Assembly: GCA_903953565.1 (NCBI GenBank)
Contig: CAJBKE010000005.1
Span: 1 to 46,743, forward strand
Direction of reading: 5' to 3'
DNA: 46,743 bases
Origin: an uncultured Verrucomicrobiota bacterium
GTDB lineage: Bacteria > Verrucomicrobiota > Verrucomicrobiia > Chthoniobacterales > JACTMZ01
How positions within the stretch are numbered: the first letter of the stretch is position 1; every line of letters begins with the position of its first letter. This document shows positions 26,917-42,464 of the stretch, one piece after another. The position numbers and the translations under genes were made by a program. Below the pieces are notes generated by a model. The model was given only the letters and a program-made list of their open reading frames with translations, did not search any database and was not told where the DNA came from.

Positions 26917-28269
26917 CTACCGACTGAAACTCAAGAAATCGACCTCGAACATTTCCTTTTGACTGCCGTGAAAAAAGAGCCACACAGCGTGGACCCCCTC
27001 GGTTTTCTCGATGTCAGCCGTGATAGTTTGCCAGTCGCCTTCTTTCGCTTCAGGCACCAAGACCTTCCCGACAGCCGGGGCCCACGGCTGACCGATACGA
27101 ATCGCGATTTCTCCCCCGCCACCGAGAGCTTTGACCCTGCAATGCACCTTGCTGGCACCTTTGCCGAAGTCGATATACTTGAAGGCGACATTGTCGCCGT
27201 TGCGGATGCCGGTCAGAATCTCGTTGCCGGCCCCGTCCAGCGCGATGCGGACGTCTCCGAAGAGGAGGCAGGCACGAGACGCGTCGATTTCCTCGAAGGC
27301 ATTCAACGGCGCCCCGGCCCCTTGCGATGTCATCTCGACCTCATTGATGCTTCCGTCGGGATTGAACGTGATGGGTTCGACGCACGCCTTGCGCATCGTG
27401 AAGCTGTTGTGGGTCGCGCGGTGGTAAAAAACATACCATTGACCCTTGAACTCGACCACGGATCCGTGGTTGTTCCAGTTGCCGGGATCACAATGGTCGT
27501 TGTCCACAATGACACCGCCATACTTGTAGGGACCGAAAGGTGACTTGGCGGTGGAGTATCCGATGCACGTCGGCCGGTTGGCGCGGCTCACGTCGGCATA
27601 GACGAGGTAGTAAATCCCGTTACGTTTGAACATGAATGCGCCCTCATGAAAGTGGTGCTCCTTTTCATTCACCACGCCATTGACGATCGTAGCGGGATCG
27701 ATCCCGGTCATGTCGGGCTTCAGCTTCGCCATCTTGGCCTCGAACTGACCCCAAAGGTAATACGCTTGGCCGTCATCATCGATGAAGACTGACGGGTCGA
27801 TCTGCTCGAATCCCCCCACGTCCAAAGGACGTCCGTCCGTGAAGGGGCCGGTCGGGGAAGGACTGGTGGCCACGCCCTCGACGTCTTTCGGCTGACTCAT
27901 GCAATAATAGAGGAAGAATTTGCCGTCCTTCTCCATGCAGTCGGGAGCGGAGAGCGGCGTGTCGGAATAGGACACCGCATCCCCTTCGCCCTTTGAGGCA
28001 AAGATGTTCTCCGCGATTTTCCAGAGCTTCATGTCCGTGGTCTCCATCGCATGGTGACGCGACGAGCAATAATACTGCGTGCTCTCGTCCAATGAGCCGT
28101 AGATACGGAGTTTGCCATCTGTGAAGACGCGCGCGGAAGGGTCGGCAATATAGACCCCCGGGGGGACGATCGGATTTTGCGCCATTACGCTGGAGATCGC
28201 CACGAGCAGGATGCCGACAGTGATCATCGCCGAGACTTGCGCATCGTGGAGTGCGGAGCCCAAGTTCAT
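26917..28269 (-). CDS. Secreted GH43 glycosidase with C-terminal CBM6
   Basis: From ATG 28269 a 450-residue protein with a signal region (about 15-30, MITVGILLVAISSVMA). The five-bladed GH43 propeller shows its catalytic acids: base Asp43 in IADPSARVF, pKa modulator Asp158 in QIDPSVFIDDDG and acid Glu209 in HFHEGAFMF. The last 130 residues are a CBM6 (NEVEMTSQGAG ... VAFKYIDFG ... VDFLSFSR). GH43 enzymes remove arabinofuranose, xylose or galactose side groups. It is the last gene of the long minus-strand run and convergent with the GH78-like gene. ATG 28227 is an alternative start. Confidence 0.9.
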   Translation of the reverse strand: MNLGSALHDAQVSAMITVGILLVAISSVMAQNPIVPPGVYIADPSARVFTDGKLRIYGSLDESTQYYCSSRHHAMETTDMKLWKIAENIFASKGEGDAVSYSDTPLSAPDCMEKDGKFFLYYCMSQPKDVEGVATSPSPTGPFTDGRPLDVGGFEQIDPSVFIDDDGQAYYLWGQFEAKMAKLKPDMTGIDPATIVNGVVNEKEHHFHEGAFMFKRNGIYYLVYADVSRANRPTCIGYSTAKSPFGPYKYGGVIVDNDHCDPGNWNNHGSVVEFKGQWYVFYHRATHNSFTMRKACVEPITFNPDGSINEVEMTSQGAGAPLNAFEEIDASRACLLFGDVRIALDGAGNEILTGIRNGDNVAFKYIDFGKGASKVHCRVKALGGGGEIAIRIGQPWAPAVGKVLVPEAKEGDWQTITADIEKTEGVHAVWLFFHGSQKEMFEVDFLSFSR

Positions 28270-28327
28270 GAGGGAAAATCGTAACTCCGAGAAAGGAGGG
28301 TTGCAGCGAGAATCTTGTGAAACATCG

Positions 28328-31204
28328 TCACGGCAGCCGGATTTCCGCGGCGTATTCGGGAACGAGAGTGACGGACTTGATCTCCGCCGGTTCGTTCGCT
28401 TTGCCGGTCGGCCGGAAGGCGATCCCGTCGAAAACAATCTTATCGGGATTGGTCTTCCAAGGCACGACCCGCAGGAACAGCCCGTCGCCGCCGAGCTGCT
28501 CGCGCCAGCGCTTCAAACCGATCTCCCAAGGCTGCCCGTTGTTGAAGTTGTCGGTGACCAGATGGCTGTCGAGGAAAGCCCAACCCCGGTCACCGGCGTA
28601 GTCCACCCTCAGGAAAATGTCATTCAACTGGTCGAACTCCTTTGGCGGAACCTTGACCACAAGCTGCCCCTCCTGGGGCTTCACGATGTCAGCCTTGATC
28701 TCCCGCTTGGGCAGGGTGAGCGCGTAGCGGGCGAAGGCACCATCCTTCTGCGCTGCGAGCGGACCACTTGGCCCGCGCAATGCATCGGCGGGCTCGGGAT
28801 AGACAGCAAAGCTCAGTTCGTTCTTGCCGACTGCCGAGACGCGGAGCTTATCGCCGCCTGCCAGGATGTCGTTATCCGATACCACCACTCGCTGACCGCC
28901 CCATAGTTTGTCGGATTTAAGCGCATTCACCGCCTGCTGGCGTGTGAGGGTGAGCACGGAGAACGGTTTTCCTCCGACGGGTGTGACTTCGAAGATCGCG
29001 CTGGTGCCCGGTTCTGGCACGGGAATCTTCGCCAAGCCTTCGTCCTTGGCCGGCGCGGCCCCGGTGGTCGCCGCGACAGACGACGCCTCGAACGCGTATT
29101 CCGCGCTCATTCCCTCCGGCGCGAAAAAGACCCACGTGCGGTGCCCATCGTTGTCGAGGCGGGCGAGCAATTGCGCGGTCGCATATTTCAAGCGCGCGCC
29201 ATCCATCTCGAGATTGAGCGGCAGGACCGCCATCGCATCCGCTGCCAGGTCCATACTCTTGTCGTCGGCCGGCACCGTGATCGTTTCGTCTTTGAACTTC
29301 ATCTCGATGCGCACCCCCTTGCGCGGCGGCATCTTGAGTTTGTCCTGGTAGCTGTTGAGGAAGAGAAAGCCGCGGTTGCCGTCGATCCGCGCCACGTAGC
29401 GAAGATTCTTCGTGTCGCCGGGTTGCACCGGCTCGCCGGGCCAGACCGTGACCGTCGGCGTGATCAATTCGGGAAAGCCGGTCAGGAAGTTCGCCAGCGG
29501 CCGGAGGGCGCGGTAAGAATCCCGCAGGCGGCCGAACTCACCGATGGGCGCAAACCAGTCGTAGCTCATGATCGGCATCCAGCGGTCGTAATTGAGCGGA
29601 CCGCGAGTTCCAGACGGGTTGGTGCCCCCATGGTAGATATACATGCAGAACATGCTTCCCCCGCAGGCCGCGCGGGTCAGCAGGGTCACCTCCGCACCTT
29701 CCGGAGGAACGATCGGGCGCCATTCCGCCTGGATGGGGCACCCGGCGCCCAGTTCCACGTAGCCGACGGGATAACGCCAGAACTCTGGCGGCTGGCCGTA
29801 ATTGTCGGTAAAGGTCGAGGCCACGGTGGGGGCACCTGCGCCGAGAAACGAATAGACGCCCGAGGTTGCGAGGAATTCCCCGAGCGGCACAGGCGCACCG
29901 CCCCATGCGGTGGTGGTGAAGAGCGGCGCATCCATGCCCGCCTCTTGCGCCATTTTCTTGAGCCGGAGCAAATGCACTTCGTCCTCTGCGGTCGGAAAAT
30001 GGCCATTCCCGTAGCCGGCCCCGGGGAAAGGGTATTCCCAGATCACCGGAGCGTGGCCGAGTTCGTTCTCCGGCTGAACCGCAATGACCGGGCCGCCGTC
30101 CTCAAACATCAGTCCTTCGAGTTGCTCCCCGAGCTTTCCGTAGTAGCGCTTGACGTAGGCGAGATACGCGGGGTCATTGCTCCGCTCCAGGCCGGGCACG
30201 CCAAAGAGCCACTGGGGCAGTCCGCCGGCCAACACCTCCGAGTTCACAAAGGGTCCCGGCCGCAGCCAGACATACATGCCGTGCTTGGCGCAGAGCTCGA
30301 CGAACTTCCGGATGTTCCGGTTGCCGGTGAAATCGAACTGTCCGGGCTCCTTTTCCAGATGGCTCCAGATGACGTAGAACGAGATGGTGTTGAGGCCGCC
30401 GGCTTTGATCTTGAGGATGGATTCCTCCCACGCTTCCTCGTTCGTCCGTGTGGGGTGCATTTCGCCCGCGACCGGCACGAACGGCTTCCCGCCGATTTCG
30501 AGACCCTGGCTGGTCACGACGAACTTGGCCCCCTGCGGATTGACCCCGCCCCAGGTGTTGGGGCCGACGGGTTGGATCGCCCGGGGCTGCTGTGCGTCGA
30601 GCGTGTAGAGCAACTTTCCTGCCGGCGCGGCGGCCACGCCCTTGGCGGGTTCGGCGCGCACCGAGATGTTGTCCAGGCCAGGGGTCGTTCCGTTGGCGGC
30701 CCAGAACTGAATAGTGATGTCTGTGCCCGACGGGACTTCGGGAGCAACCAACACCGCCCGATTTCCTGGAACGAATTCTTTCACCGCAAGCGGAGTGCTA
30801 TTCGCCCCAAGAATAGCGACGCCGAGGATTACATCCGGCCCCCACGTTGGCAAAACATCGCATTCCAAAACCACATCGGCGGTCTCGTTGAGTCTGCCGA
30901 CCACCTGCTGCAGAAACCCCAATGGCGAGACATTGCAGACCGGCTTATACGGCCCGCTCCGCACGTCCACGGCATACGTGGCGTCGATGGATTTCTGAGG
31001 CTCCATCGGAATTGACGTCCAGCCGTGGGGCATACCGCTGCGCCAGCCGTTGGCATCCTCAGCTCCCAGACCGGATACATCGCTAAAGTCTCCGTTTGTC
31101 ACGGCGAGATCGTTCTTCGTTTGCGCGGCCGCATTGGCTGCGTAAATGAACATGATCGCAACGGTCAAAACAGCAGCTTGCGCCAAAGGGCTAAGTTTTT
31201 TCAT
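28328..31204 (-). CDS. Secreted GH35 beta-galactosidase with N-terminal NGDFS module
   Basis: From ATG 31204 a 958-residue protein with a signal peptide (MKKLSPLAQAAVLTVAIMFI onward, cleaved near 27). Residues 33-184 are an NGDFS module (LAVTNGDFSDVSGLG ... GTDITIQFWAANGTTPGLDN), the same module as in three stand-alone proteins of this locus. The GH35 barrel starts near 236: PVAGEMHPTR, YVIWSHLEKEPGQFDFTGN, LRPGPFVNSEVLAGGLPQWL, with acid/base Glu379 in PENELG. The C-terminal 400 residues are beta-rich. An in-frame ATG at 31309 would add 35 residues without improving the signal peptide. Likely extracellular or periplasmic removal of terminal galactose. Confidence 0.88.
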   Translation of the reverse strand: MKKLSPLAQAAVLTVAIMFIYAANAAAQTKNDLAVTNGDFSDVSGLGAEDANGWRSGMPHGWTSIPMEPQKSIDATYAVDVRSGPYKPVCNVSPLGFLQQVVGRLNETADVVLECDVLPTWGPDVILGVAILGANSTPLAVKEFVPGNRAVLVAPEVPSGTDITIQFWAANGTTPGLDNISVRAEPAKGVAAAPAGKLLYTLDAQQPRAIQPVGPNTWGGVNPQGAKFVVTSQGLEIGGKPFVPVAGEMHPTRTNEEAWEESILKIKAGGLNTISFYVIWSHLEKEPGQFDFTGNRNIRKFVELCAKHGMYVWLRPGPFVNSEVLAGGLPQWLFGVPGLERSNDPAYLAYVKRYYGKLGEQLEGLMFEDGGPVIAVQPENELGHAPVIWEYPFPGAGYGNGHFPTAEDEVHLLRLKKMAQEAGMDAPLFTTTAWGGAPVPLGEFLATSGVYSFLGAGAPTVASTFTDNYGQPPEFWRYPVGYVELGAGCPIQAEWRPIVPPEGAEVTLLTRAACGGSMFCMYIYHGGTNPSGTRGPLNYDRWMPIMSYDWFAPIGEFGRLRDSYRALRPLANFLTGFPELITPTVTVWPGEPVQPGDTKNLRYVARIDGNRGFLFLNSYQDKLKMPPRKGVRIEMKFKDETITVPADDKSMDLAADAMAVLPLNLEMDGARLKYATAQLLARLDNDGHRTWVFFAPEGMSAEYAFEASSVAATTGAAPAKDEGLAKIPVPEPGTSAIFEVTPVGGKPFSVLTLTRQQAVNALKSDKLWGGQRVVVSDNDILAGGDKLRVSAVGKNELSFAVYPEPADALRGPSGPLAAQKDGAFARYALTLPKREIKADIVKPQEGQLVVKVPPKEFDQLNDIFLRVDYAGDRGWAFLDSHLVTDNFNNGQPWEIGLKRWREQLGGDGLFLRVVPWKTNPDKIVFDGIAFRPTGKANEPAEIKSVTLVPEYAAEIRLP

Positions 31205-31312
31205 TCCCATTTGGCCCGATACCCCGAAGCCTGCTTCGGCTTTGCGGGTGAAGGGGCCGCATCTCCGTTGTCCGAGGCTTTTCCCGAGGTTCTTTATTTG
31301 TTGTTTCATGGG

Positions 31313-31600
31313 TTATAAATTCAGCTGGCTCAACGGCAAGGCGATCGAGTCCGCGTCCATCCGCAACGGCCGTTTGGTCGTCGGCCCATGGTCGACAAAG
31401 GATTTCGCGATGGAGTCGTAAACCTTGACCAGCCCGGCAAGATGCTTCCAGGAGTCGGACAATCCGCCGCGGACCCCGGCACCCGACGAAAAATCGCCGT
31501 TGGTGACAAGTTCCGGGGCTGCGCCGGCGATGGCCGTGGGAAGCGAGGCGAAGAGCAGACAACGGGCGACAGTGATTATTCGTCTGTTCAAAGTATTCAT
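31313..31600 (-). CDS. Truncated NGDFS-module secreted protein
   Basis: A 95-residue protein with a signal peptide (MNTLNRRIITVARCLLFASL onward) and then ELVTNGDFSSGAGVRGG, the opening of an NGDFS module. The module stops after about 65 residues, lacking the conserved FW-LDN end seen in its relatives. It lies between the GH42 and GH35 genes in the same direction. It could be a broken gene, the displaced original front of the GH35 gene, or a short real protein. Confidence 0.5.
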   Translation of the reverse strand: MNTLNRRIITVARCLLFASLPTAIAGAAPELVTNGDFSSGAGVRGGLSDSWKHLAGLVKVYDSIAKSFVDHGPTTKRPLRMDADSIALPLSQLNL

Positions 31601-31601
31601 A

Positions 31602-31650
31602 GTATCAAACAAATGTAGTGTTCGCGTTTTATGTTATTAAACAAATCGTA
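31602..31650 (-). repeat. AT-rich direct repeat before the truncated NGDFS gene
   Basis: Two copies of a roughly 15-base word (TATCAAACAAAT at 31603 and TATTAAACAAAT at 31635, each followed by GTAG or CGTAG) are spaced 32 bp apart. The stretch is clearly AT-rich in a GC-rich operon. It sits in the 82-bp gap below GH42 and may be an internal promoter or operator. Confidence 0.45.
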
Positions 31651-31682
31651 GAGATGACTGATCGCCGCCGATTCGTTTGCGT

Positions 31683-33692
31683 TCACCATGGCAATATCTT
31701 CACGCCAAAGCCTTCGATCTTTTCGGGTGCGCCGCGAGCGGGTTGAAACTGTGCCGCAGTTGCGCGCGTGTTGACCACAACGCAGCCGGCGGGTTTGCCA
31801 TCGCTGGTCACGCGCGGCGCGATGATCACGCCGGCATCCGCCGAAGCTTGAGTTTCCGGCGCCAAATTTTTGAGGAAGTCGCGCAGCCACCTGTCTTCCG
31901 GCTGGGTCCCAAGCAGAATGACCCGCCCCTGGCCGATGGGACATTCCACGATTGCAGCATAACCATCCAGGGGACCGCCGGAATACCGGGCGAGAACCCG
32001 CTGCGTTGCGCTCGTTTCATAGGCATCGCACCACCACTGACAGCTCACGGCTTCTTTTTCCGTCGCCAAACGGGTCGAGCTACCGGGCGGCGAGCGATGG
32101 CGGACATGGATGCCCAGCCACTTCTCGAAATCCGCGCCGTAGCAGGCATCGCGGTGCGCCGTCGCCTCGGTCGTGCGGCACGCGGAAAGCGGTCCAAGCA
32201 CCCAGGTGCCGCCCTGTTCGACATAACTCTTCATCGACTTTAGCGTCGCGGCGTCAAGTGCCGGAAAATACGGCGAGAAAACCGTTTGGTATCCGTCCAC
32301 CGACCCGCCGGGCATGATGACATCGCGGGAGATACCGCACTCCGCAAGCATCCGGTGAAACACGGTGGTGGCCGCATCGTAGCTGAAGCCGGCGGCGATG
32401 GGACTCGCGGTAAACTGCCATTGCGAAGGGAGTCCGTAGGTCAGCGCCACCTTGGCCGACGCGGGTTTGGTCGCGCGCAGCCAGGCGGCATTTGTTTTCA
32501 GCTCGGCGGCGGCGCGGCGGATTTCCGGCGTATTGGCGCATTCATCGCCCCAGGGATAAAGCAGGCTTCCGTGTTCCAGTTCCTGTCCGGCCCAATGCGC
32601 GCGCCAGAGCCAGAAACTTACGGCGTCGCCACCAAGCGCGTAGGTGAGCCACATCTTGGCGCGCAGCGCACCGGGGAAATTTGCCCAATCGCTTGCGTTG
32701 TCCACCGCCGTCCCCGCGCTATGAGTCGAGGCGGTTTCCGCGAGCCAGAACGGTTTTTTCAGCGGACGCATCCAGTCGGCCTCGAACGCGTAGCGCATCA
32801 GATCATTCGGCCCGGCATAACTGTCCGTGCTGACGAGATCGAGGTCGCGAAACAGGTCGGCGTAATCAATCTGTTGGTAGGCGGGATTGTGAGCGTTCGT
32901 GGTCACGCTCTTTTTCGTGTGCCGCCGCAGTGCCTTGGCCTGGGCGTCACAGAAGGCCACATAGCTGTCGCTCATGAAATGTCGGTAGGCGGCGACGAGG
33001 GAGGGATGATGCCCGGCACCGACACGCTGCGGATTGGGCAGCGGCACTTGATCGAACGATTGGTATTCCTGGCTCCAAAGCACGGTGAGCCAGGCGGCGT
33101 TCAGGTTTTCAATCGTGCCAAAACGATTCTTCAGCCACCCGTGAAACGCCTTTTCACAGTTCGCGCAATAACAATCCTCCCACAGTTCATTGTCGATTTG
33201 CCAGGCGATCACGCCGGGTTCACGGCCAAACTCCTCGCCCATTTTATCCGCGATGCGCACCGCGTAAGAACGATATGTCGGTGAGTTGGGGCAGTAGTGC
33301 CGTCGCCCGCCGTGGCCGATGGTCTGGCCGAAAGCGTTCACGCGGAGAATGTCGGGATGCGCCTCGCTCAACCAAACCGGCGGCGTGGCCGTGGGCGTGC
33401 ACAACTGGACCGCAATACCCGCGTCCGAAAACCGTTTCACCGCCGCATAAAGCCAGGCAAAATTGAACTCCCCGTCGTTCGTCTCCATGCGCGACCACGC
33501 GAACTCACCAAAGCGCACGAGATTCACCCCCATCTCACGCATCAGGGCGATGTCATCGTCCATCTGATCGCCCGCTACTTCGGGGTAATACGACACCCCC
33601 ACATAGGGTGGCTCGGGTTGAGCGGACGCAGCACGAACAATTGTCGGTGTGAGTAAGAGAGCAGATAGGATCAAGGTTTTCATGAGCATCAT
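31683..33692 (-). CDS. Secreted GH42 beta-galactosidase
   Basis: A 669-residue protein with a signal peptide (about 1-22). GH42 hallmarks: YYPEVAGDQMDDDIALMREM, VRFGEFAWSRME, the acid/base Glu169 in WQIDNELWEDC, and the zinc-site cysteines at 134 (HYCPNS), 174, 176 and 179 (DCYCANC). WLKNRFGTIENLNAAWLTVL and nucleophile Glu319 in FWLAETAST follow. Length matches the family (trimerisation domain and C-terminal beta-domain included). It would release beta-linked galactose outside the cytoplasm. Three possible ATGs (33692, 33689, 33683) all keep the signal peptide. Confidence 0.93.
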   Translation of the reverse strand: MMLMKTLILSALLLTPTIVRAASAQPEPPYVGVSYYPEVAGDQMDDDIALMREMGVNLVRFGEFAWSRMETNDGEFNFAWLYAAVKRFSDAGIAVQLCTPTATPPVWLSEAHPDILRVNAFGQTIGHGGRRHYCPNSPTYRSYAVRIADKMGEEFGREPGVIAWQIDNELWEDCYCANCEKAFHGWLKNRFGTIENLNAAWLTVLWSQEYQSFDQVPLPNPQRVGAGHHPSLVAAYRHFMSDSYVAFCDAQAKALRRHTKKSVTTNAHNPAYQQIDYADLFRDLDLVSTDSYAGPNDLMRYAFEADWMRPLKKPFWLAETASTHSAGTAVDNASDWANFPGALRAKMWLTYALGGDAVSFWLWRAHWAGQELEHGSLLYPWGDECANTPEIRRAAAELKTNAAWLRATKPASAKVALTYGLPSQWQFTASPIAAGFSYDAATTVFHRMLAECGISRDVIMPGGSVDGYQTVFSPYFPALDAATLKSMKSYVEQGGTWVLGPLSACRTTEATAHRDACYGADFEKWLGIHVRHRSPPGSSTRLATEKEAVSCQWWCDAYETSATQRVLARYSGGPLDGYAAIVECPIGQGRVILLGTQPEDRWLRDFLKNLAPETQASADAGVIIAPRVTSDGKPAGCVVVNTRATAAQFQPARGAPEKIEGFGVKILPW

Positions 33693-33714
33693 AAGAATCG
33701 AAAGAGCCTGTGCT

Positions 33715-35517
33715 TCAGCGAAGATCCAAGGTGCATGGTTCGATCGTCCAGTCGTTCATCAGGCGCGCGGAGTTGCCGGGGCGCCAGCCGAGGAGAACCT
33801 TCGCGGGGCCGGTCTTTTTTGCCGTATCCCAGCGAATGTCCACCGAGCCATCGGGGAGGTTTTTCGCCTGCACCCATTCCGTGCCCTCGATGACCAAAGC
33901 GCTTGAGTCGAGCGGGTTGTTCCCTTCCCCTCGCAGCCGGATCTTCCGGGAGCCCGCTCCTTCCAAGCGGGCGAGCGCGGCGACGTCGCTCTCATCCAGG
34001 CTGATGGAATCGGGGCGGCCCGGCTGGTGGTTGCGGGGTTGAACAGGATTGCCCTGATAGCTTGCATTCCGGATCGGACTCAGCGCGCCGGTCTCCTGCA
34101 GATGTTTTTCGATCAATGCATCCAGCTCGCGCACTTTGTCCGGCATGAATGAGGCCAAGTTGACTGTTTCGTCGGGATCGCGGCTGAGATCGAAGAGTTC
34201 GTAGTGGTGGGCCGCCGCGTTTTCTCCCGCCCAATAGAAACGCAGCAGCTTGAAATCCCCGAGCCGCACGGAAGCCGAGGGGGCGCACATCCAGGAGAAA
34301 TCGTGCGGGAAGTCGAAGAAAATCGGGCGGGTGGCCAGCGGCCCGCCTTCGAGCAGCGGGACCAAGCTGACGCCATCAATCGGCTGCCCGGCTGGCGGCT
34401 CGGCCCCCGCGATCTGCAGGATCGTCGGATAAAGATCAATCGTCGAAACGGGCGTGTTGTTGGTGCGGCCCGGTGTGATGTGCCCGGGCCAGCTGATGAT
34501 CCATGGCACGCGTGTTCCTCCCTCGTAGGTATTCGCCTTGCCGCCCCGCAGCGGAAGATTCGAGGTAGGACGGGCGAAGCCATCCATCTCATAGTTGACC
34601 CCGCCGTTGTCCGAAACAAAGACGACCATCGTGTTGTTCTTGATCTCGTGGTTTTCCGGCCGGTCGAGCCAGTCGAGAAGAAGCCCGACGCTGGAGTCGA
34701 GGCTTTCAATCATCGTCGCCATTTCCGGGCAATCCTGCAGCCCGCGCGGATCGGTCTTGGCCTGATACTTCGGGAGCAGAGCTTTCTTCGCGACGATCGG
34801 TCCATGGACCGCATACGGCCAGAGGTTCAGATAAAACGGCTTTCCAGAATCGCGGACGGAATCGAGCCACTTGATTGCCTCGGCGCTCAGCCGCTCGTTG
34901 AGGTATTCGCCTTCGGGACCCGGCGTCAGATTGGGAATGACGAGTTTCCCGTTCCGATAAGGAGAGTAGTAGTCCGGCGGTCCCGCGAGACGATCGCCCC
35001 CGATGACAAAATCGAATCCTCGGTGCCCGGCGTCGAACTCGCTCGTTTCGTTCCTTGGCGTGGAGAGATGCCATTTTCCAATATGGGCCGTAGTGTATCC
35101 GTCCTGCTTGAGGGCCTCGGCCAGCGTGCGGACTTCCAAAGGAAGGTGGTCCTTCGTCCCGACATCGCCGCAGTATTGGTTTTCCTTTGGCAGCACGGCT
35201 TTGGGTTCCGCGGTGGCGCGGTTGGGCGTAATCGCCTCGGTGAGATGAAGCCGCGCCGGATGTTGTCCGGTCATAATGCTGGCGCGCGTGGGCGAACACA
35301 GCGGACTGGCCGCATAGGCATCAGTGAACCTCATGCCCTCCCGGGCCAAGCGTTCCAGCGAGGGTGTCTCGTAGTAGGTCGAACCGTAAGGGCTTGTGTC
35401 CGCCCAGCCCAGGTCGTCGGCGAGAATGACGATGACATTTGGCTGGGTGGCGACGGCGGTGCCCGGCACCAAGACTAAGGCGGCGAGGCACAGAGCGCGA
35501 AGAAGCGGAGGAGCCAT
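33715..35517 (-). CDS. Secreted type I sulfatase
   Basis: A 600-residue S1-family sulfatase with a signal peptide (1-23). The N-terminal metal site is VILADDLGW (Asp34, Asp35). The maturation motif C-S-P-T-R at 74-78 has Cys74, which must be converted to formylglycine by a maturation enzyme not encoded here. GKWHL, VSDNGG and GGTRVPWIISWPGH complete the family pattern. The tail from about residue 485 is a beta-rich extension. It would remove sulfate esters from a polysaccharide, so the target glycan is probably sulfated. 17 bp below the GH106-like gene and 22 bp above GH42. Confidence 0.93.
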   Translation of the reverse strand: MAPPLLRALCLAALVLVPGTAVATQPNVIVILADDLGWADTSPYGSTYYETPSLERLAREGMRFTDAYAASPLCSPTRASIMTGQHPARLHLTEAITPNRATAEPKAVLPKENQYCGDVGTKDHLPLEVRTLAEALKQDGYTTAHIGKWHLSTPRNETSEFDAGHRGFDFVIGGDRLAGPPDYYSPYRNGKLVIPNLTPGPEGEYLNERLSAEAIKWLDSVRDSGKPFYLNLWPYAVHGPIVAKKALLPKYQAKTDPRGLQDCPEMATMIESLDSSVGLLLDWLDRPENHEIKNNTMVVFVSDNGGVNYEMDGFARPTSNLPLRGGKANTYEGGTRVPWIISWPGHITPGRTNNTPVSTIDLYPTILQIAGAEPPAGQPIDGVSLVPLLEGGPLATRPIFFDFPHDFSWMCAPSASVRLGDFKLLRFYWAGENAAAHHYELFDLSRDPDETVNLASFMPDKVRELDALIEKHLQETGALSPIRNASYQGNPVQPRNHQPGRPDSISLDESDVAALARLEGAGSRKIRLRGEGNNPLDSSALVIEGTEWVQAKNLPDGSVDIRWDTAKKTGPAKVLLGWRPGNSARLMNDWTIEPCTLDLR

Positions 35518-35534
35518 CGGGCGAGAGGTGGAAC

Positions 35535-37754
35535 TTATCCCTCTTCCACAAGAAAGAGACTCGAAGAGGGCGGCATGGTCAGTTCGGCCGGCAGGCTTTG
35601 CGTCGTGATGGTGCCGTCAGCCGGGTTATAGACCTGCACGCTTCCGGAGGCCTTCCCCTCGAGGCGGAATCGCGGGCTCACGGCGGCACCGCCCTTGTTG
35701 ACCACGTAATTGATTCTGCGTCCATCGCGCTCGAACCGGCCGATCAGGATGTCCTTGCTCTCCGCGTCGAAGCGCAGCCGAAAGCTGCCGGGGAACGCTT
35801 CGCCCAGAGACCCGACGACCTGCTCTGGAGTGATGGTGGCCACGCCGGCCACGGCTGCGCGCACCGCCTCATGTTCTGCAGGCGAATCTCCGAGGCGCGG
35901 CAACGAGTCCACCCAGAGCACCTTGCCGCCGGCCTTCTCGAACTGCTGGAGCTTCTGCATCACCGGAAGCGGCAACAGTTCGACCCGGGGCATGATGATG
36001 GACGTATATTCGTGCGCCCCCATGATCAGGCGTCCCGCACGGATTTCCGCCTTCAGCACCGCGTCGCCATCAACCCAACTGAAGTCGTAGCCATGCTCGA
36101 AGAGGCTGGGAATGATCTGCTCCTGGGTCTCCTCCATGAGGATCATCTGCGGGTCGTAGTTGGCCGGTTTTGACTGGATGTTGCTCGGGACCAGCGTCGC
36201 CGGGACCGGGCGGAAGGTGGATTGAAACGATTCGATTGGGTAATAGAGGGCGACGTTCGAGGTGTTTCTCGCTCCCCGCAGCATGAGGGCCAGCCGCCCC
36301 ACCTGCTCGTTGATCTTCCGGTAAACTTCGGCCGGGTATTTGTCCCAGAAAATGTAACTGCTCACATGGTTGACGCCGCATAAGAAGGCCACGTTGAGGT
36401 AGCGCATGACCTGCTCCAACGTGGCGGTAACGAAGCTCATGTCGCCCTTCCGGTCGATGAGCGGGTCCATCAGGCAGGTGACCTCCTCGCGGTTTTGCAG
36501 CTGGGCGACGGAGCTGGTCAACTTCGGCGACCAGTAGGTCCAGGGTTCGCCGGGATCCGGCATCGCGATGTCGCATCCCGGAACGTGCTGCTGCTGCATG
36601 GCCTGAAAGTAATTGCCGGAGCAAATGACGTGCATGTCCATGCGCTCCTCGCCAAAAAGGTGTCCGCCGGATTTGACGCCGTTTTCCTCGCACCAGCGCG
36701 CGAAGCGTCCGGTGATGTTCTCCGCGTAAATGTTTCCGACGGTCTGGTAAAAATGCCGGCGAACCAGCTTGGCCTCGTCGCTCTCCCCCGCGTAGAGGGC
36801 GGGGAGGAATGGCATGAGGTCGTAGCCGTGATCCTGGCGGAAACGTTCCGGCAGTGCCGCACTCCATGGGAGATAGGAAACGCCGCCCGGTCGCTCTCCT
36901 CCGGTGTGCCAGATCGACCCAGGGTGCGGTTCGTTGGTGTAGAAAAGATCGATTTGGCCGGCAAGTGGACCGAGACGGCGAGCATATTCGGCGTGGGTCA
37001 GTTCGACAAACTTGGCCATGGCCTCGGGATCGAGCAGGTTGGGGTAGTGGCCCGTGGTCTTGAATTGTTCCATCGTGCCGCGGGCCGGACTTCCCGCGTC
37101 GTTGTTGATCTGCTGCACGAAAGCGTGGAGCGCCCACTCGCCCGGCAATCCCGTGGCTTCGACGAAATTTCCCTGCACCGGCACCTCGGTGCCTGCGGCG
37201 TAATCGGGTTGCCCGTCTTTGACGGGATAGAGCGTGGCGCGGACGAACTTCTCCGCGCCCGGCGGCAGGTCCGTCCGCACCCGCTGCGGCCCGTTGCCGC
37301 GTTGGACCAAGGGGGCCAAGACCCGCAATTCAAACTTGGGATCGGCCTCGACGACCAAGCCCCCGGCCTGCGGGCTGGGATAGCCGTTGTCGTCGGCCAC
37401 CCACACCTGCATACCGGCCTTCTTGGCCTCCCGGATGTTGGTGATCATTGCGGCCCAGGCCTCCTCATCGCGCAGGTATTTGTGCGTGCTCATAAAGAGC
37501 TCCACCCCGCCGATGCCGTGCTCGCGCATCTTGGCGATCGGCACGATGGAACCATCGTGGCCGCCGAATTGGACGATCCGGCAATCGTTGGGCGGGTTGA
37601 GGAACTCAGAGTCAATCCGGGCACAGGTGGCCGAGGGCTTTTTCGCGCAGCCATGGACCAGACCGCTGGCCATTACGACCGCGAGGCCGAGCGAGAAGGC
37701 GTGGCGCGAGGATGAACGCTTTTTGCTCAGGTTTGTTGACGGGGCTTGTTTCAT
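35535..37754 (-). CDS. GH106-like lipoprotein glycosidase, paralog A
   Basis: A 739-residue predicted lipoprotein (lipobox region GLVHGC, Cys36). The layout resembles GH106 alpha-L-rhamnosidases: an N-terminal barrel (FLNPPNDCRIVQFGGHDGSI, MREHGIGGVELFM, GMQVWVADDNGYPS), FYTNEPHP with a conserved acid, PWSAALPERFRQDHGYDLMP, and a C-terminal beta-domain ending in LPAELTMPPSSSLFLVEEG. It is a clear paralog of the next gene upstream. Family assignment is by pattern, so related retaining or inverting families cannot be excluded. Its last 47 bases of similarity reappear as a stray copy at 37807. Confidence 0.68.
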   Translation of the reverse strand: MKQAPSTNLSKKRSSSRHAFSLGLAVVMASGLVHGCAKKPSATCARIDSEFLNPPNDCRIVQFGGHDGSIVPIAKMREHGIGGVELFMSTHKYLRDEEAWAAMITNIREAKKAGMQVWVADDNGYPSPQAGGLVVEADPKFELRVLAPLVQRGNGPQRVRTDLPPGAEKFVRATLYPVKDGQPDYAAGTEVPVQGNFVEATGLPGEWALHAFVQQINNDAGSPARGTMEQFKTTGHYPNLLDPEAMAKFVELTHAEYARRLGPLAGQIDLFYTNEPHPGSIWHTGGERPGGVSYLPWSAALPERFRQDHGYDLMPFLPALYAGESDEAKLVRRHFYQTVGNIYAENITGRFARWCEENGVKSGGHLFGEERMDMHVICSGNYFQAMQQQHVPGCDIAMPDPGEPWTYWSPKLTSSVAQLQNREEVTCLMDPLIDRKGDMSFVTATLEQVMRYLNVAFLCGVNHVSSYIFWDKYPAEVYRKINEQVGRLALMLRGARNTSNVALYYPIESFQSTFRPVPATLVPSNIQSKPANYDPQMILMEETQEQIIPSLFEHGYDFSWVDGDAVLKAEIRAGRLIMGAHEYTSIIMPRVELLPLPVMQKLQQFEKAGGKVLWVDSLPRLGDSPAEHEAVRAAVAGVATITPEQVVGSLGEAFPGSFRLRFDAESKDILIGRFERDGRRINYVVNKGGAAVSPRFRLEGKASGSVQVYNPADGTITTQSLPAELTMPPSSSLFLVEEG
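35551..35597. repeat. 47-bp direct repeat, copy 1 (inside GH106-like A)
   Basis: Encodes the LPAELTMPPSSSLFL region near the C-terminus of paralog A and is identical, base for base, to 37807-37853. Confidence 0.9.
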
Positions 37755-37790
37755 GAAGTGGAGAAAAAATGGGCGGTGGGCCGTGGGGCC

Positions 37791-37853
37791 TTAGTCACCC
37801 TCGACCAGAAAGAGACTCGAAGAGGGCGGCATGGTCAGTTCGGCCGGCAGGCT
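37791..37853 (-). pseudogene. Stray 3' end of a GH106-like gene
   Basis: Between the two GH106-like genes lies a short stretch that on the minus strand reads SLPAELTMPPSSSLFLVEGD and ends in TAA. It has no start codon and no upstream homology in frame. 47 of its bases (37807-37853) are identical to the 3' region of paralog A. It is most simply the relic of a tandem duplication whose middle was lost or overwritten. Confidence 0.75.
37807..37853. repeat. 47-bp direct repeat, copy 2 (intergenic)
   Basis: Identical to 35551-35597 and in the same orientation; it lies in the 114-bp gap between paralog B and paralog A. Confidence 0.9.
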
Positions 37854-37868
37854 CCTTGCGACGGGAAC

Positions 37869-40055
37869 CTACGAGGGGTCTTCGGTCACAATCAGACTGG
37901 ACTGCGGCGGGATGGTGACAGTGGCGGGCGTCTGCTGCGGGGTGATGGAGCCGTCGAGCGGATTGTAGACGTGCACGGACAGCCGCGCATCGCCGGCGGA
38001 TTCCAAGGGCACAGTCATGGGCTGCGGCCGGTAGTTGACCAGATAGTTGATACGCCGGCCGTCCCGGACGAAACGCGCGATCATGGGAGCTTGGTCGGCG
38101 CGCAACTCGAAACCCGGCGGCACGACACGGCCGACGGCGGCAGCCACATCGCCCGGACGCAGGATCTGCTGGCCGGCAAACAGCCCCCGCACTTTTTCAT
38201 GCTCGTCGGCTGCGTCGCCCATTTGCGGAAGCGAACTGGCCCACAGCACTTTGCCTCCGGCCTTTTGAAACTCTGCGATTTTCTCGGCGACATCCAGCGG
38301 AAGCACTTCCACCTGCGGCATGATCAGCGTGCGGTAGCGGCCGTTGGCCGCGACCAGCCAGCCATCCTCGACCTTCGCATCCCGAATCCAGTCTCCATGC
38401 AGCCAGTTGAAATCAATGCCCGTGGTAACCAGCGACTTGGCGATGGCATCGTAGCCTTCCCTCATCTCCTGCATCCGGCGCCACTGGGGCGGATACCACG
38501 CGCTGTCATGGGTCATGACGAATTCCGCAGCGGGCAGGAACTCCGCCTGAAACGTCTCGATGGGATAATACATGGCGACAGTAGCTGCGCTCCGAGCGCC
38601 GCGCAGGACAGCACACAAACGTCCGGCATACTCGCTCATGCCGCGATAGACGGACGGCTCATAGTCGGCCCACCGCAGGTAGGTCTGGAACTGGTTGACA
38701 CCGCAGAGCACTGCCATGTTGACGATCCGGCGGAACTGTTCGGGCGTGGGCGTCAGATTCATAACCGGACGGTCGATGATCGGGTCGAGCAGACACGCCA
38801 CGGCGTCGCGGTCCTTGGCCTGGGCGATGGAACTGAGGAACTTCGCATGCCAGAAAATCCACGGCGCGCCGGGATCGGGCATGGGCGTGTCGAGGCTGGG
38901 GATTTGCATCTCTCCCACAAAGCGGAAGAAGTCCCCGTAGCCGATGACATGGTGGATCATCACCTCCTCGAGAACCGGATGCCCTGCCGTGCGGACTCCG
39001 TTGGCCTCCGCCCACGTGCCGATGCGCCCGGTAAAGTTCTCCGCGAGAATACTTCCGACCGTCTCGTAGAAATGACGTCGCGTGAGTTTGTCCACCGGAG
39101 TGTTGCCCCCGTAAAGCGCGGGCAACCGCGGCAACAAGTCATAGCCGTGGTCTTCCCGGAAGCGCCGGGGCAGATCGTCCTCCCATGGCACAAAAGCCTC
39201 GCCACTGGGACGGGCGCGAAGCGGCTGGTGCTCATACCACTGGCTCTGCAGCAGCGGCTCGTTGGTGACGAAAACATCGATGTTCTCTTTGAGCGGCTCG
39301 AATCTCCGCGCGTATTCCTTGTGCGTCAGCTCGACGAATTTCTCCACGGCCGCGGCCTGTAGGAGGTTGGGAGAACGGCCGGTGGTGTGGAAGCCGCTGA
39401 CGGTGCCCTTGGCCGAATTGCCTTCATACATCACCGCCACGGCGAAAGCGCACAAGCGCCACGGCCTCTCGCGTCCCTGCGTCTCCACGCGATCCGCCTG
39501 CACTGGCACTGCCTCGGCCCGCTCCAGAACCGGCTGGCCGTCAACCAGCGGATAAAGGAAGGCGTAGACGAACTTTTCGGCATCCGCGGGCAGATCCAAA
39601 CGCACGGCACCGGTGCCTTCGCCGTCCTTGGTCACCTCCATCAAGCACCGCGCCTCGAACGCCGGCTCGGCCTCGACGACCAGGCCGCTCGCCGCGCCGC
39701 TGGGATAGCCGTTGTCGTCCGCCATCCAAATCTGCAAGCCGGCTTTCTTCGCCGCCTCGATGTTTTTGCGCACGTTGTCCCAAGCGTCGTCCGACGTGAG
39801 GTAACCAAAGCTTTGCATGAACAATTCGATGCCGCCGATGCCCGCCTCGGCCATTTTATCGACAGGCAAAAGGGCCCCGTCGTGCTGGCTGAATTGAATC
39901 AACCGGAACTCGGCGGGCGGATGGGCGAACTCTGAATCGATCTTTCCCCATGCCGCCGCATCATCTGCGAGTTCAGCCTTTTCCGCAGATGGCGGCCGCG
40001 AGCAAGCGGACAAAAACGCGATGGCGACAAAGAGGAGTGAGGGAAAATGTTTCAT
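37869..40055 (-). CDS. GH106-like lipoprotein glycosidase, paralog B
   Basis: From ATG 40055, 728 residues with a lipoprotein signal (FLSACS, Cys18). Same architecture as paralog A: FAHPPAEFRLIQFSQHDGAL, AGIGGIELFMQS, GLQIWMADDNGYPSGAASGL, VFVTNEPLLQ, PWEDDLPRRFREDHGYDLLP, and a C-terminal beta-domain (RRINYLVNYRPQPM). Conserved N-E-P and D-D-N-G-Y-P boxes are shared by both. Lipid anchoring suggests work at the cell surface or periplasmic face. It starts 13 bp after the GH99-like stop. Confidence 0.68.
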   Translation of the reverse strand: MKHFPSLLFVAIAFLSACSRPPSAEKAELADDAAAWGKIDSEFAHPPAEFRLIQFSQHDGALLPVDKMAEAGIGGIELFMQSFGYLTSDDAWDNVRKNIEAAKKAGLQIWMADDNGYPSGAASGLVVEAEPAFEARCLMEVTKDGEGTGAVRLDLPADAEKFVYAFLYPLVDGQPVLERAEAVPVQADRVETQGRERPWRLCAFAVAVMYEGNSAKGTVSGFHTTGRSPNLLQAAAVEKFVELTHKEYARRFEPLKENIDVFVTNEPLLQSQWYEHQPLRARPSGEAFVPWEDDLPRRFREDHGYDLLPRLPALYGGNTPVDKLTRRHFYETVGSILAENFTGRIGTWAEANGVRTAGHPVLEEVMIHHVIGYGDFFRFVGEMQIPSLDTPMPDPGAPWIFWHAKFLSSIAQAKDRDAVACLLDPIIDRPVMNLTPTPEQFRRIVNMAVLCGVNQFQTYLRWADYEPSVYRGMSEYAGRLCAVLRGARSAATVAMYYPIETFQAEFLPAAEFVMTHDSAWYPPQWRRMQEMREGYDAIAKSLVTTGIDFNWLHGDWIRDAKVEDGWLVAANGRYRTLIMPQVEVLPLDVAEKIAEFQKAGGKVLWASSLPQMGDAADEHEKVRGLFAGQQILRPGDVAAAVGRVVPPGFELRADQAPMIARFVRDGRRINYLVNYRPQPMTVPLESAGDARLSVHVYNPLDGSITPQQTPATVTIPPQSSLIVTEDPS

Positions 40056-40068
40056 GACAAATGAATGC

Positions 40069-41289
40069 TCAGCGGGCCGCCACAACTGCCACTTCGTTCG
40101 ACTTGGACGCTCCGAAGACATCCCGCACCGCTTCCAGATAAGCCATCCCGTTTACCGTGTCCGGTTCGAGGTAGCTGCCCTCCGTCCACTCGTTCCAGCT
40201 GTTGATGTTGAGGATGCGTTGCGCAGGCGGTGCGTCCATGAGGCGTTCTTTGGTAAGCTCCAGCGCCCGGCGGAAACGCGCGGGAGTGTTGCCGGAAATC
40301 GTGTTGGTGAACGGGTAGCCGAAGTTGCCGAATTCATCGTCTTGATGGGTGCGCGGACTGGAATCCCATCCCATGGTCACGTTGGGATAATACGGACGGT
40401 CGAACTTCTTCTTCGCCTCGTCCCAGTAGCCGAAATAGCCGTCGCGCACGTAGTTGTAGTCGGTCTCCAAATCAGGAAGATCGACGTGATGGAACCAAAC
40501 GTAGGACGTGACCGAATCGAAACCCAACTCCTCCACGACCTTCGCGCCGTCGACCGGCGTGTTCTGCCACGGCATGACCGCTCTGCCCCAAACCACCGCG
40601 TTGAGGTGCAGATCGGGGAAACCGGCCGCGCGTGTCTTGTCACGGAAGCGTTCCAAGGCGACGCGCGCCTCTTTCATTGAAGAAAAACCGGCCAGCAACT
40701 TGGACAAGTCGTAGAAAGAAAAATACGGGCAACCTTCGACCAGCCAGTAGGACGGATGGAGGAAGTAACGATCGACGACGAGATCGCCGATGCGCTCGAA
40801 AGCATCGGGTGTGACCACGCCCGGGAACCGAACCAGCTCCGGTTCACCGCGGCGGTAGGGCTGGATTTCCAACCAATCGTGGTTGGCCCACATCAGCGCG
40901 AAACGAAGGCGGTCGTTGTTCGAGGCCCCCATAAAACCGCGGTCCAAAGGCCGATCGAGGAAAGGTCCGTCTTCATAGTGATACCAGTCGAAAATGAACG
41001 CATCGATCCCGTGGTCGGCCGCCGCGGCGATCTTGCGTTCCATCGCCGCAGGATCGGACTCATCCTCGTAACCCCACAGCGGGATCTTCGGTTGGGCGTG
41101 GCCGGGAAAGCGGGGCCGCGCGTCTTTGACGAGTTCCCATTCCGTCCATCCCCCACCCTTCATCGCCTCGTTGCGCGGATCGCCGGGATGGTAATTGCCG
41201 AAGTAGTAACAGGCTACCTGCACGTTGTCTTGTTGCTCACCACTGAGCACTGCGTTTTTGCCAACGCGATCCGCGACAAGGCCATTCAT
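40069..41289 (-). CDS. GH99-like / WbsX-type protein
   Basis: A 406-residue protein with no signal peptide. The WbsX/GH99-like barrel is visible from residue 23 on: VQVACYYFGNYHPGDPRN, GGGWTEWELVKDARPRFPGH, QPKIPLWGYEDESDPAAM, GIDAFIFDWYHYEDGPF, FALMWANHDW and the C-terminal INSWNEWTEGSYLEPD. The GH99 family cleaves endo-alpha-mannosidic bonds, but WbsX-type members are also found in glycan assembly, so the reaction is open. It is the first gene of the 14.4-kb operon. GTG at 41226 is a possible alternative start, because the predicted -10 lies only six bases before ATG 41289. Confidence 0.78.
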   Translation of the reverse strand: MNGLVADRVGKNAVLSGEQQDNVQVACYYFGNYHPGDPRNEAMKGGGWTEWELVKDARPRFPGHAQPKIPLWGYEDESDPAAMERKIAAAADHGIDAFIFDWYHYEDGPFLDRPLDRGFMGASNNDRLRFALMWANHDWLEIQPYRRGEPELVRFPGVVTPDAFERIGDLVVDRYFLHPSYWLVEGCPYFSFYDLSKLLAGFSSMKEARVALERFRDKTRAAGFPDLHLNAVVWGRAVMPWQNTPVDGAKVVEELGFDSVTSYVWFHHVDLPDLETDYNYVRDGYFGYWDEAKKKFDRPYYPNVTMGWDSSPRTHQDDEFGNFGYPFTNTISGNTPARFRRALELTKERLMDAPPAQRILNINSWNEWTEGSYLEPDTVNGMAYLEAVRDVFGASKSNEVAVVAAR

Positions 41290-41295
41290 CTTGCG

Positions 41296-41359
41296 ACTTT
41301 ACCAGCCAGTGCGCGGCGCCGCGGTGAGAATCCTGCCAAATGTGAGCACGATCTTGCCG
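41296..41359 (-). promoter_or_regulatory. AraC-type operator plus promoter, site c (long glycosidase operon)
   Basis: On the minus strand CGGCAAGATCGTGCT and TGGCAGGATTCTC are 21 bp apart. 31 bp further is TAAAGT (41301-41296) preceded by TGG, the same CTGGTA context as site a. The -35 position is GC-rich (CCGCGG). It is the only copy upstream of the genes 41289-26917, so it probably drives them all. The predicted start point is at or next to ATG 41289. Confidence 0.75.
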
Positions 41360-41428
41360 GAAACGATCCGGCGCCGAGGCGTTGGGCTTGAGGCCGCCGC
41401 AACATACACACTTCGGGTGCGCGCCTAG

Positions 41429-42400
41429 TCATGAAGGTTTGCCCGCTTTGCGGCGGCCGGTCTGGAATTGCCGGGGCGATATTCCGTAAGCCATGCGGAA
41501 TTGCCGTGCGAAATAGCTGCCGTCGCTGAACCCGCACTCCAAAGCCACCTCGGTCACGGTCTTGTCGCTCGTTTGCAACATGGTCGCTCCCCGCGCGAGC
41601 CTCACTTTTTGCAGGTAAGCATGAGGGGTCTCATGCGTCACATCGCAGAAAAACCGGTAAAAGTTGCGCTCCGACATGCCGACGATCTTCGCCAACTCGG
41701 AGGGTTTCACCTCCTCGCCGAAATGGCTCTCCATATGGGCGATGGCCCGTCCAATTTTCATGATGCGTTCCGACTCGACGGTGGGAGCAGTGTTGTAGGC
41801 CCTCGACAACAACACGACCAAAGACATGAACTGCGCCAGTGCCATGAAACGGTGGCCGGCGGTTCCAAGTTCCTTCCTGCGCCCGGTAGCGCTTTCGTGA
41901 CGCTGCTCGAAACGCACGGCCCGCACCCGCGGCGCATCGCCGTACAACTCCGTCTCGATCGACTCAGCCAGCTCCCGCGCTTTGGCCAGTTCCCGCATTC
42001 CCAAAGTCAGGTGGCGAGCGGAACGACCCGATCGGCGCAGCGCCGGCTCGATGACAAATAGCGCCTGATAGCCCGGCAAGCCGGCCACATCGAGACGCAC
42101 CCGGTTGAGCAGCGAAGGCTCGTAGATCACGTTGACCACGCCTAGGTTGCGCGTCGCGCGGTAGCCGTGCGGACGCCCTCCGTGGTGCACGAAGACATCG
42201 CCAGCCTTGACCGCGAACTCTTCCTTGCCCACCACATTCACACCGCTGCCGTGCAGGACGATGACAATCAGCGAGAAGTCATGCGCGTGCAGTGGATAAT
42301 CCGGGTGATCATCCAGGATGAGCACATTGAGCGGAAAGTTCCGGTCGCCGAAAATCAGCTGGCGCTCGAACTTGACCGGCTTGGAAGAACGACGGGGCAT
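41429..42400 (-). CDS. AraC-family transcriptional activator, RhaS-like
   Basis: From ATG 42400, 323 residues. The N-terminal cupin sensor (about 15-115) resembles RhaS/RhaR: PLHAHDFSLIVIVLHGSGVN, FAVKAGDVFVHHGGRPHGYR, VVNVIYEPSLL. The C-terminal domain holds two helix-turn-helix units: SELAKIVGMSERNFYRFF at 234-251 and VTEVALECGFSDGSYFARQF at 282-301, followed by GISPRQFQ. Such proteins bind direct repeats as dimers and activate from sites next to -35. It lies amid six matching operators and is the only regulator in the locus, so it is the best candidate to bind them, with rhamnose or a rhamnoside as inferred inducer. TTG 42433 is an alternative start. No operator copy precedes its own gene. 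Confidence 0.9.
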   Translation of the reverse strand: MPRRSSKPVKFERQLIFGDRNFPLNVLILDDHPDYPLHAHDFSLIVIVLHGSGVNVVGKEEFAVKAGDVFVHHGGRPHGYRATRNLGVVNVIYEPSLLNRVRLDVAGLPGYQALFVIEPALRRSGRSARHLTLGMRELAKARELAESIETELYGDAPRVRAVRFEQRHESATGRRKELGTAGHRFMALAQFMSLVVLLSRAYNTAPTVESERIMKIGRAIAHMESHFGEEVKPSELAKIVGMSERNFYRFFCDVTHETPHAYLQKVRLARGATMLQTSDKTVTEVALECGFSDGSYFARQFRMAYGISPRQFQTGRRKAGKPS

Positions 42401-42464
42401 ACAGCCACTTACGATTTCAACGCATGCGGGCAAAGCCCCAAGTGAGGTCCGCGCGGCAAGGCCC

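Follow-up and report, generated by a model that had tools for sequence, protein, structure and literature searches.

Gene content of the locus

The window, i.e., the whole stretch of 46,743 bases analyzed here, carries a polysaccharide-degradation locus with the following genes and features, all on the minus strand: an AraC regulator (42433-41429), a WbsX-like gene (41289-40069), gene B (37869..40055), an intergenic repeat, gene A (35535..37754), a sulfatase (35517-33715), GH42 (33692-31683), and GH35 (31309-28328). Genes A and B encode GH106-like proteins of 739 and 728 aa. Both pass the Pfam GH106 cut-off (PF17132; 33.9 and 31.5 bits, respectively, cut-off 29), with the similarity spanning about 70 of the 743 model positions, and both stay below that of the NCBIfam rhamnosidase model (41 and 46 bits, cut-off 1300).

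Only three solved structures, 6q2f, 5mqm, and 5mwk, match A by sequence at E 0.01, and the same three lead the Foldseek matches of its predicted structure (pLDDT 73.7), with E-values from 4.2e-26 to 1.6e-22, TMq of 0.56–0.61, and rmsd of 9.6–11.8. These best sequence and fold matches of A among solved structures are the alpha-L-rhamnosidases BT_0986 (5mqm, 5mwk) and that of Novosphingobium (6q2f), both of which we take to be members of GH106. The GH106 alpha-L-rhamnosidases of solved structure have 1,038–1,151 residues, compared with about 730 in A and B. By these matches, "GH106-like" is a fair label for both putative enzymes. In two same-genus genomes, the GH106-like frame extends by several hundred residues (loci L004, L005, and L059; 1347 and 1311 from stop to stop) and contains repeats, presumably autotransporter-like ones.

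Freshwater Verrucomicrobia MAGs are described, in the part of the study available to us, as rich in GH78 and GH106, with GH106 among the ten most common glycoside hydrolase families and sulfatases near glycoside hydrolase genes (PMC5615132). The gene content of the present locus is of the same kind, as far as that part goes; paralog arrays and gene loss are not treated in it. A literature search by title gave no publication on this locus among the matches listed.

The 47-base repeat

Bases 37807-37853, situated between the stop codon of B (37869-37871) and the start of A (37754, minus strand), are identical at 47 of 47 positions to bases 35551-35597 within the 3' end of A (minus strand), and the next base differs at both ends. 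The original prediction had reported this identity and the intergenic position of the second copy, and both hold; the wide divergence that it had ascribed to the paralogs is also seen, the A and B proteins being 47% identical. By k-mer counts (k = 47, 40, 30, 25, 22, and 20), this is the sole exact direct repeat of at least 22 bases in the window, where about 7e-19 direct repeats of the 47-base length are expected by chance.

The reading frame of the A tail is kept in the intergenic copy and leads to a stop codon, TAA, at 37791-37793. Frame and stop had both been noticed before; the stop, however, is not part of the 47 identical bases and falls in a flank where seven of 17 bases are mismatched. 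Over the 64-base frame around the repeat, the copies are 89% identical. An exact search for the 47-mer in the genome contig collection gave no match.

A complete three-gene array in a relative

The DNA of the junction was searched in 213 genomes of the order. It was found in the window's own genome and in a second one (G125; 169 bits, 99% over 96 bases); in one further genome, only 28 bases of the spacer described below match. The match in G125 is located on contig C116, JAPLTF010000072.1, a 163,729-base MAG contig from Lac Pavin that is assigned to a different family within this order. The same contig was also recovered through an A-type gene that is 92% identical to A at the protein level.

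The Pavin contig contains three complete tandem A-type genes, R1, R2, and R3 (locus L074: 5769-7964, 8001-10220, and 10258-12459; 85, 92, and 66% identity to A, respectively), followed by a sulfatase, GH42, and GH35. The start of A coincides with that of R2. Upstream of it, window bases 37756-37851 match the tail of R1 and the R1–R2 spacer at 95 of 96 positions, the one mismatch being at 37797. This match divides into C-terminal codons of an R1-type gene with its stop, LPAELTMPPSSSLFLVEGD (37791..37851, minus strand; hereafter the stub), and the spacer, which runs into the start of A (37755..37790, minus strand). Hence the last 60 or so bases of R1 and the spacer are kept while the body of the gene is missing, and an intact R1 upstream of R2 is the counterpart at the same place in G125.

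The intergenic copy of the repeat is, on this comparison, best read as the stub of a third tandem GH106-like gene, R1, which appears to have been lost. Loss of a third copy had been among the possibilities originally raised, and the search for a third paralog in relatives suggested there has now yielded the complete array, with a gene whose tail and spacer equal the relic. Most probably the stub has no function of its own.

The array was encountered once. Among 15 loci from a search of relatives with the A-type gene, L074 alone has more than one A-type copy; the other 14 are without a second copy in the DNA covered. In ten same-genus genomes (G001-G010), nothing is closer to A than 46%, and matches at E 0.001, found only in G002, G003, G006, and G010, are B-type or remote. 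A class-wide search with A in 384 evenly drawn genomes gave four genomes at E 1e-100, with a best identity outside the window's own genome of 46%; G125 did not appear and evidently was not part of this draw.

Age of the repeat

Pavin R1 shares 46 of the 47 repeat bases, the sole difference being at 37852, so that the failure of the exact 47-mer search was to be expected in hindsight. The contiguous match of the stub to R1 starts at 37851. These 46 bases have stayed the same although the alleles of the two contigs differ with dS of 0.06 to 0.20 elsewhere in the DNA shared with Pavin, and the earlier argument that a perfect repeat in non-coding DNA must be recent is too strong. By simple arithmetic, 45 consecutive unchanged bases at about 4.5% divergence are expected approximately one time in eight.

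Gene A is a mosaic of three paralogs

Gene A was compared codon by codon with R1, R2, and R3, and we counted as informative those sites that distinguish R1 from R2 and at which A has the state of one or the other, 340 in all. In the segment 35868..37754 (minus strand), which is 95.5% identical to Pavin R2 (dS 0.135), 230 of 253 informative sites are R2-like and 23 are R1-like. From 35856 to the end of the gene, 84 of 87 sites are R1-like, and the C-terminal segment 35553..35856 (minus strand; about 300 bases) is 97.4% identical to Pavin R1 (dS 0.057). The last 18 bases (35535..35552, minus strand) match R3 at 17 positions, R1 at 11, and R2 at nine.

One change point is strongly indicated between the first two segments: the maximum chi-square is 229.6 vs. 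at most 18.6 in 2000 shuffles (0/2000 reach the observed value); the shuffling assumes independent sites, which is not true here, and the margin is large all the same. The informative sites flanking this point are 12 bases apart. Trees built with three outgroup genes agree with the segment assignments. The body of A groups with R2 with split support of 100, and in the tail tree A and R1 are separated from R2, R3, and the outgroups, again with support of 100; the placement of R2 versus R3 in that tree has support of just 48. The R1-like sites within the body include short runs of up to five consecutive ones, and smaller exchanges inside the body are possible.

Gene A is thus an R2 body whose C-terminal segment is R1-type and whose end is R3-type, a composition that had been missed originally, although recombination at the 3' end had been rightly proposed. 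The R1-type tail begins near residue 630, ahead of the C-terminal strands 659-737. The short spacer between A and the sulfatase resembles that between R3 and the sulfatase, and the R3-type 18 bases are likely the scar of a lost R3. Both ends of the repeat are accounted for by this composition: one is the start of the stub, at the cut in R1, and the other is the point at which A becomes R3-type.

The divergence of the tail is compatible with gene conversion and with unequal crossover alike. Gene A may have gained its R1-type tail either before the separation of the two loci or after it; timing and polarity of the gain are not fixed, because Pavin R2 itself bears an R3-like tail. A conversion-like event separate from that in A is seen in Pavin, where R2 and R3 (L074 8001-12459) are 88.5% identical in the tail and 73.5% identical over the body.

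A block shared with the Pavin contig

The similarity to the Pavin contig forms a block of about 9.5 kb with sharp edges (28325..37851, minus strand) that comprises GH35, GH42, the sulfatase, A, and the stub. When the window was cut into pieces of 250 bases, 34 of the 38 pieces from 28500 to 37999 had at least 90% identity to the Pavin contig. The remaining four start at 28750 (89.2%), 31250 (89.6% over 77 bases, covering a second relic), 35250 (84.0%), and 35750 (88.8%, spanning the mosaic point). Pieces immediately outside the block (27500-28249 and 38000-38249) gave no match to that contig. The stub is the edge of the shared block, a point missed in the original prediction. No transposase or integrase was found among the Pfam matches of the 26 window proteins scanned, a subset of its genes, and the edges were inspected by eye.

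Identity of individual genes in the block to their Pavin counterparts is 96.3% for GH35 (dS 0.091), 95.2% for GH42 (dS 0.142), and 92.5% for the sulfatase (dS 0.197). The IleRS/LspA stretch of the window contig shows 73–87% identity in all ten same-genus genomes and 70% in G125, so the window contig belongs to its genus. The AraC–WbsX–B flank is 66–74% identical to G125 and 67–73% to the same-genus genomes G006 and G002; being about equally far from both, it is by itself no marker of native background. With 92–96% identity of the individual genes in the block and about 70% in the core, the block looks exchanged, and horizontal exchange between the two families of the order is likely.

A second gene relic is found in the block between GH35 and GH42 (31311..31587, minus strand), as judged from its translation and its matches to a Pavin B'-type gene. 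It retains the start, a signal-peptide-like stretch (labeled by eye), and the NGDFS motif of a lost protein, then continues with a fragment of a GH106-like gene, about 25 residues long, after which comes the adjacent piece of that gene in inverted orientation. Identity to the B'-type gene at 93486-93633 of the Pavin contig is 89.6% for bases 31311-31387 and 90.4% for bases 31386-31458. Pavin retains about 24 bases of this relic at the same place, and hence both loci share an older history.

The exchange could have proceeded from a Pavin-like source, in the reverse direction, or from a third source. A Pavin-like source is favored by the presence of the complete gene of the stub in Pavin and by the second relic being a fragment of another gene on the Pavin contig; protein searches of the window's genome found only A, B, and one further paralog on contig C8. 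Against it stand the older shared history and the base composition of the block, which in both copies is nearer to the window's genome. In tetranucleotide profile, the window block lies at a distance of 0.112 from a sample of its own genome and 0.156 from a sample of G125, and for the Pavin copy the respective values are 0.139 and 0.168. By these distances, no foreign composition of the block relative to the window's genome was found.

Support for assigning the Pavin contig to the other family is weak. Its tetranucleotide profile is intermediate between the two genomes. A 20-kb piece, L112, matched none of nine genomes at E 1e-60; another, L114, matched two of three genomes of the Pavin genus and none of six of the window's genus at E 1e-20. 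An NCBIfam scan of ten proteins from L113-L116 recognized no core gene. Both assemblies appear to be of MAG type.

The last points matter for a rather unlikely alternative that dispenses with horizontal transfer: the locus was inherited, and an in-place rearrangement, e.g., an inversion or deletion between GH106-like genes that are oppositely oriented in Pavin, produced the stub. Indeed, both contigs carry GH78-like, AraC, WbsX, B-type, GH35, GH42, sulfatase, and A-type genes. In Pavin, the AraC–WbsX–B' set faces the array and ends about 17 kb from the tail of R1, so that an inversion would set a B-type gene beside that tail, and the closeness of block composition to the window's genome in both contigs also fits inheritance. 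However, identity at two levels, 92–96% within the block as opposed to 66–74% in the AraC–WbsX–B flank and about 70% in the core, is unlike one vertical history. This objection would lapse if the Pavin contig were misbinned and the flank evolved very fast.

Gene B and its junction with the stub

Gene B belongs to another clade than A. It is 62% identical at the protein level to the paralog on contig C8 and 54–55% identical to the Pavin B'-type gene. Its tail is B-type, aligned with members of the clade to the end, and finishes with its own stop codon, which is in frame with the stub. The bases from this stop to the stub (37852..37868, minus strand) have no alignment to the Pavin contig. A search of a plasmid collection with B and the junction gave no match. 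The C8 paralog (L002; G000:C8:24386-26539), the third GH106-like paralog of the window's genome, is the closest to B among those compared; it adjoins a gene labeled by eye as sugar-transporter-like.

An assembly artifact at a repeat would be conceivable, as the assembly is in 70 contigs and the array genes are alike, but we regard it as quite improbable. Between the B side (109 bases) and the 202 bases that precede the junction in Pavin R1, the longest shared run has seven bases and, on the B side, is situated about 90 bases from the junction; since B and Pavin R1 have no longer run in common, shared k-mers would not be expected to join them at this point. The closeness of the informative sites at the mosaic point, judged on the Pavin copies since R1 of the window is gone, also speaks against misassembly, and when the genome was searched with protein queries, no isolated fragment of R1 or R3 came to light.

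It is very improbable that the stub is functional, whether as a C-terminal extension of B produced by read-through or as an intergenic element with a regulatory role. The shared frame of the B stop and the stub would add 25 codons, but such a coincidence happens one time in three by chance, the product would bear two consecutive tails, and both the C8 paralog and the homolog in L071 end near the same point as B. Least credible of all is the earlier suggestion that the tail of B was replaced by that of A, the stub being the replaced piece: the stub does follow B in frame, but B has not lost its tail, since the latter is complete with its own stop and of a clade different from that of A, and the stub is followed by the R1–R2 spacer. 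Of the overall reading proposed originally, recombination at the 3' end and loss of a third copy survive, and replacement of the B tail does not.

Proposed history of the locus

Taken as a whole, an account in which the repeat is the stub of a lost R1, A is a mosaic, R3 was lost, and the stub marks the edge of a probably exchanged block has, in our estimate, a probability of about 80%. Counting against it, just one relative with the array was found, and the DNA of the stub occurs in 2/213 genomes of the order.

We infer the following order of events. The ancestral locus would have contained R1, R2, and R3 as tandem A-type genes, followed by the sulfatase, GH42, and GH35. In the lineage of the window, R1 would have been lost except for some 60 bases and the spacer, either on entry of the block or later, so that the other-clade gene B now abuts the stub. 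R2 would have acquired the R1-type C-terminal segment via crossover or gene conversion, and R3 would have been lost through a join at its last 18 bases, leaving the single mosaic gene A. The 47-base identity would then be the overlap of the stub and the converted tail.

Truncated paralogs are known to remain at recombination and deletion junctions of tandem gene arrays. The stub resembles such remnants: a paralog has lost its body and left a short 3' end, still in frame, beside living copies, and a relative has an intact copy. What differs is that both ends of the repeat are explained here and the surviving neighbor is a three-way mosaic. Concerted evolution, i.e., gene conversion among tandem paralogs, also is well known, and the switches of affinity between paralogs by segment, with sharp change points, are similar, whereas the setting, a polysaccharide-degradation locus of uncultured Verrucomicrobia, is different. 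No new mechanism is needed. Events of this type are known, the case being one of ordinary loss and reshuffling of genes seen in unusual detail, and general views are unchanged by it. The locus provides a small worked case of paralog gain, loss, and recombination in such loci, where one short repeat can expose how an array of three enzyme genes collapsed and where a gene block shared between families ends.

A more speculative and rather doubtful suggestion is that the array acts as a diversifying store of cassettes, with C-terminal beta-rich segments swapped repeatedly among the GH106-like copies and the stub being a by-product carried between families. Two swaps may be cited for it, that of an R1-type segment into A in the window and that of an R3-like one in R2 of Pavin. 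If this were true, new enzyme combinations would arise through recombination.

Two further observations concern the Pavin contig. The AraC–WbsX–GH106-like set is present in both genomes (window 37869-42433; G125:C116 89475-94111) with 66–74% DNA identity, and its orientation relative to the GH35, GH42, and sulfatase array is opposite between them. The contig also contains an L-rhamnose isomerase gene (L116 1196-2731; NCBIfam score above the cut-off), which fits a rhamnose-polymer locus.
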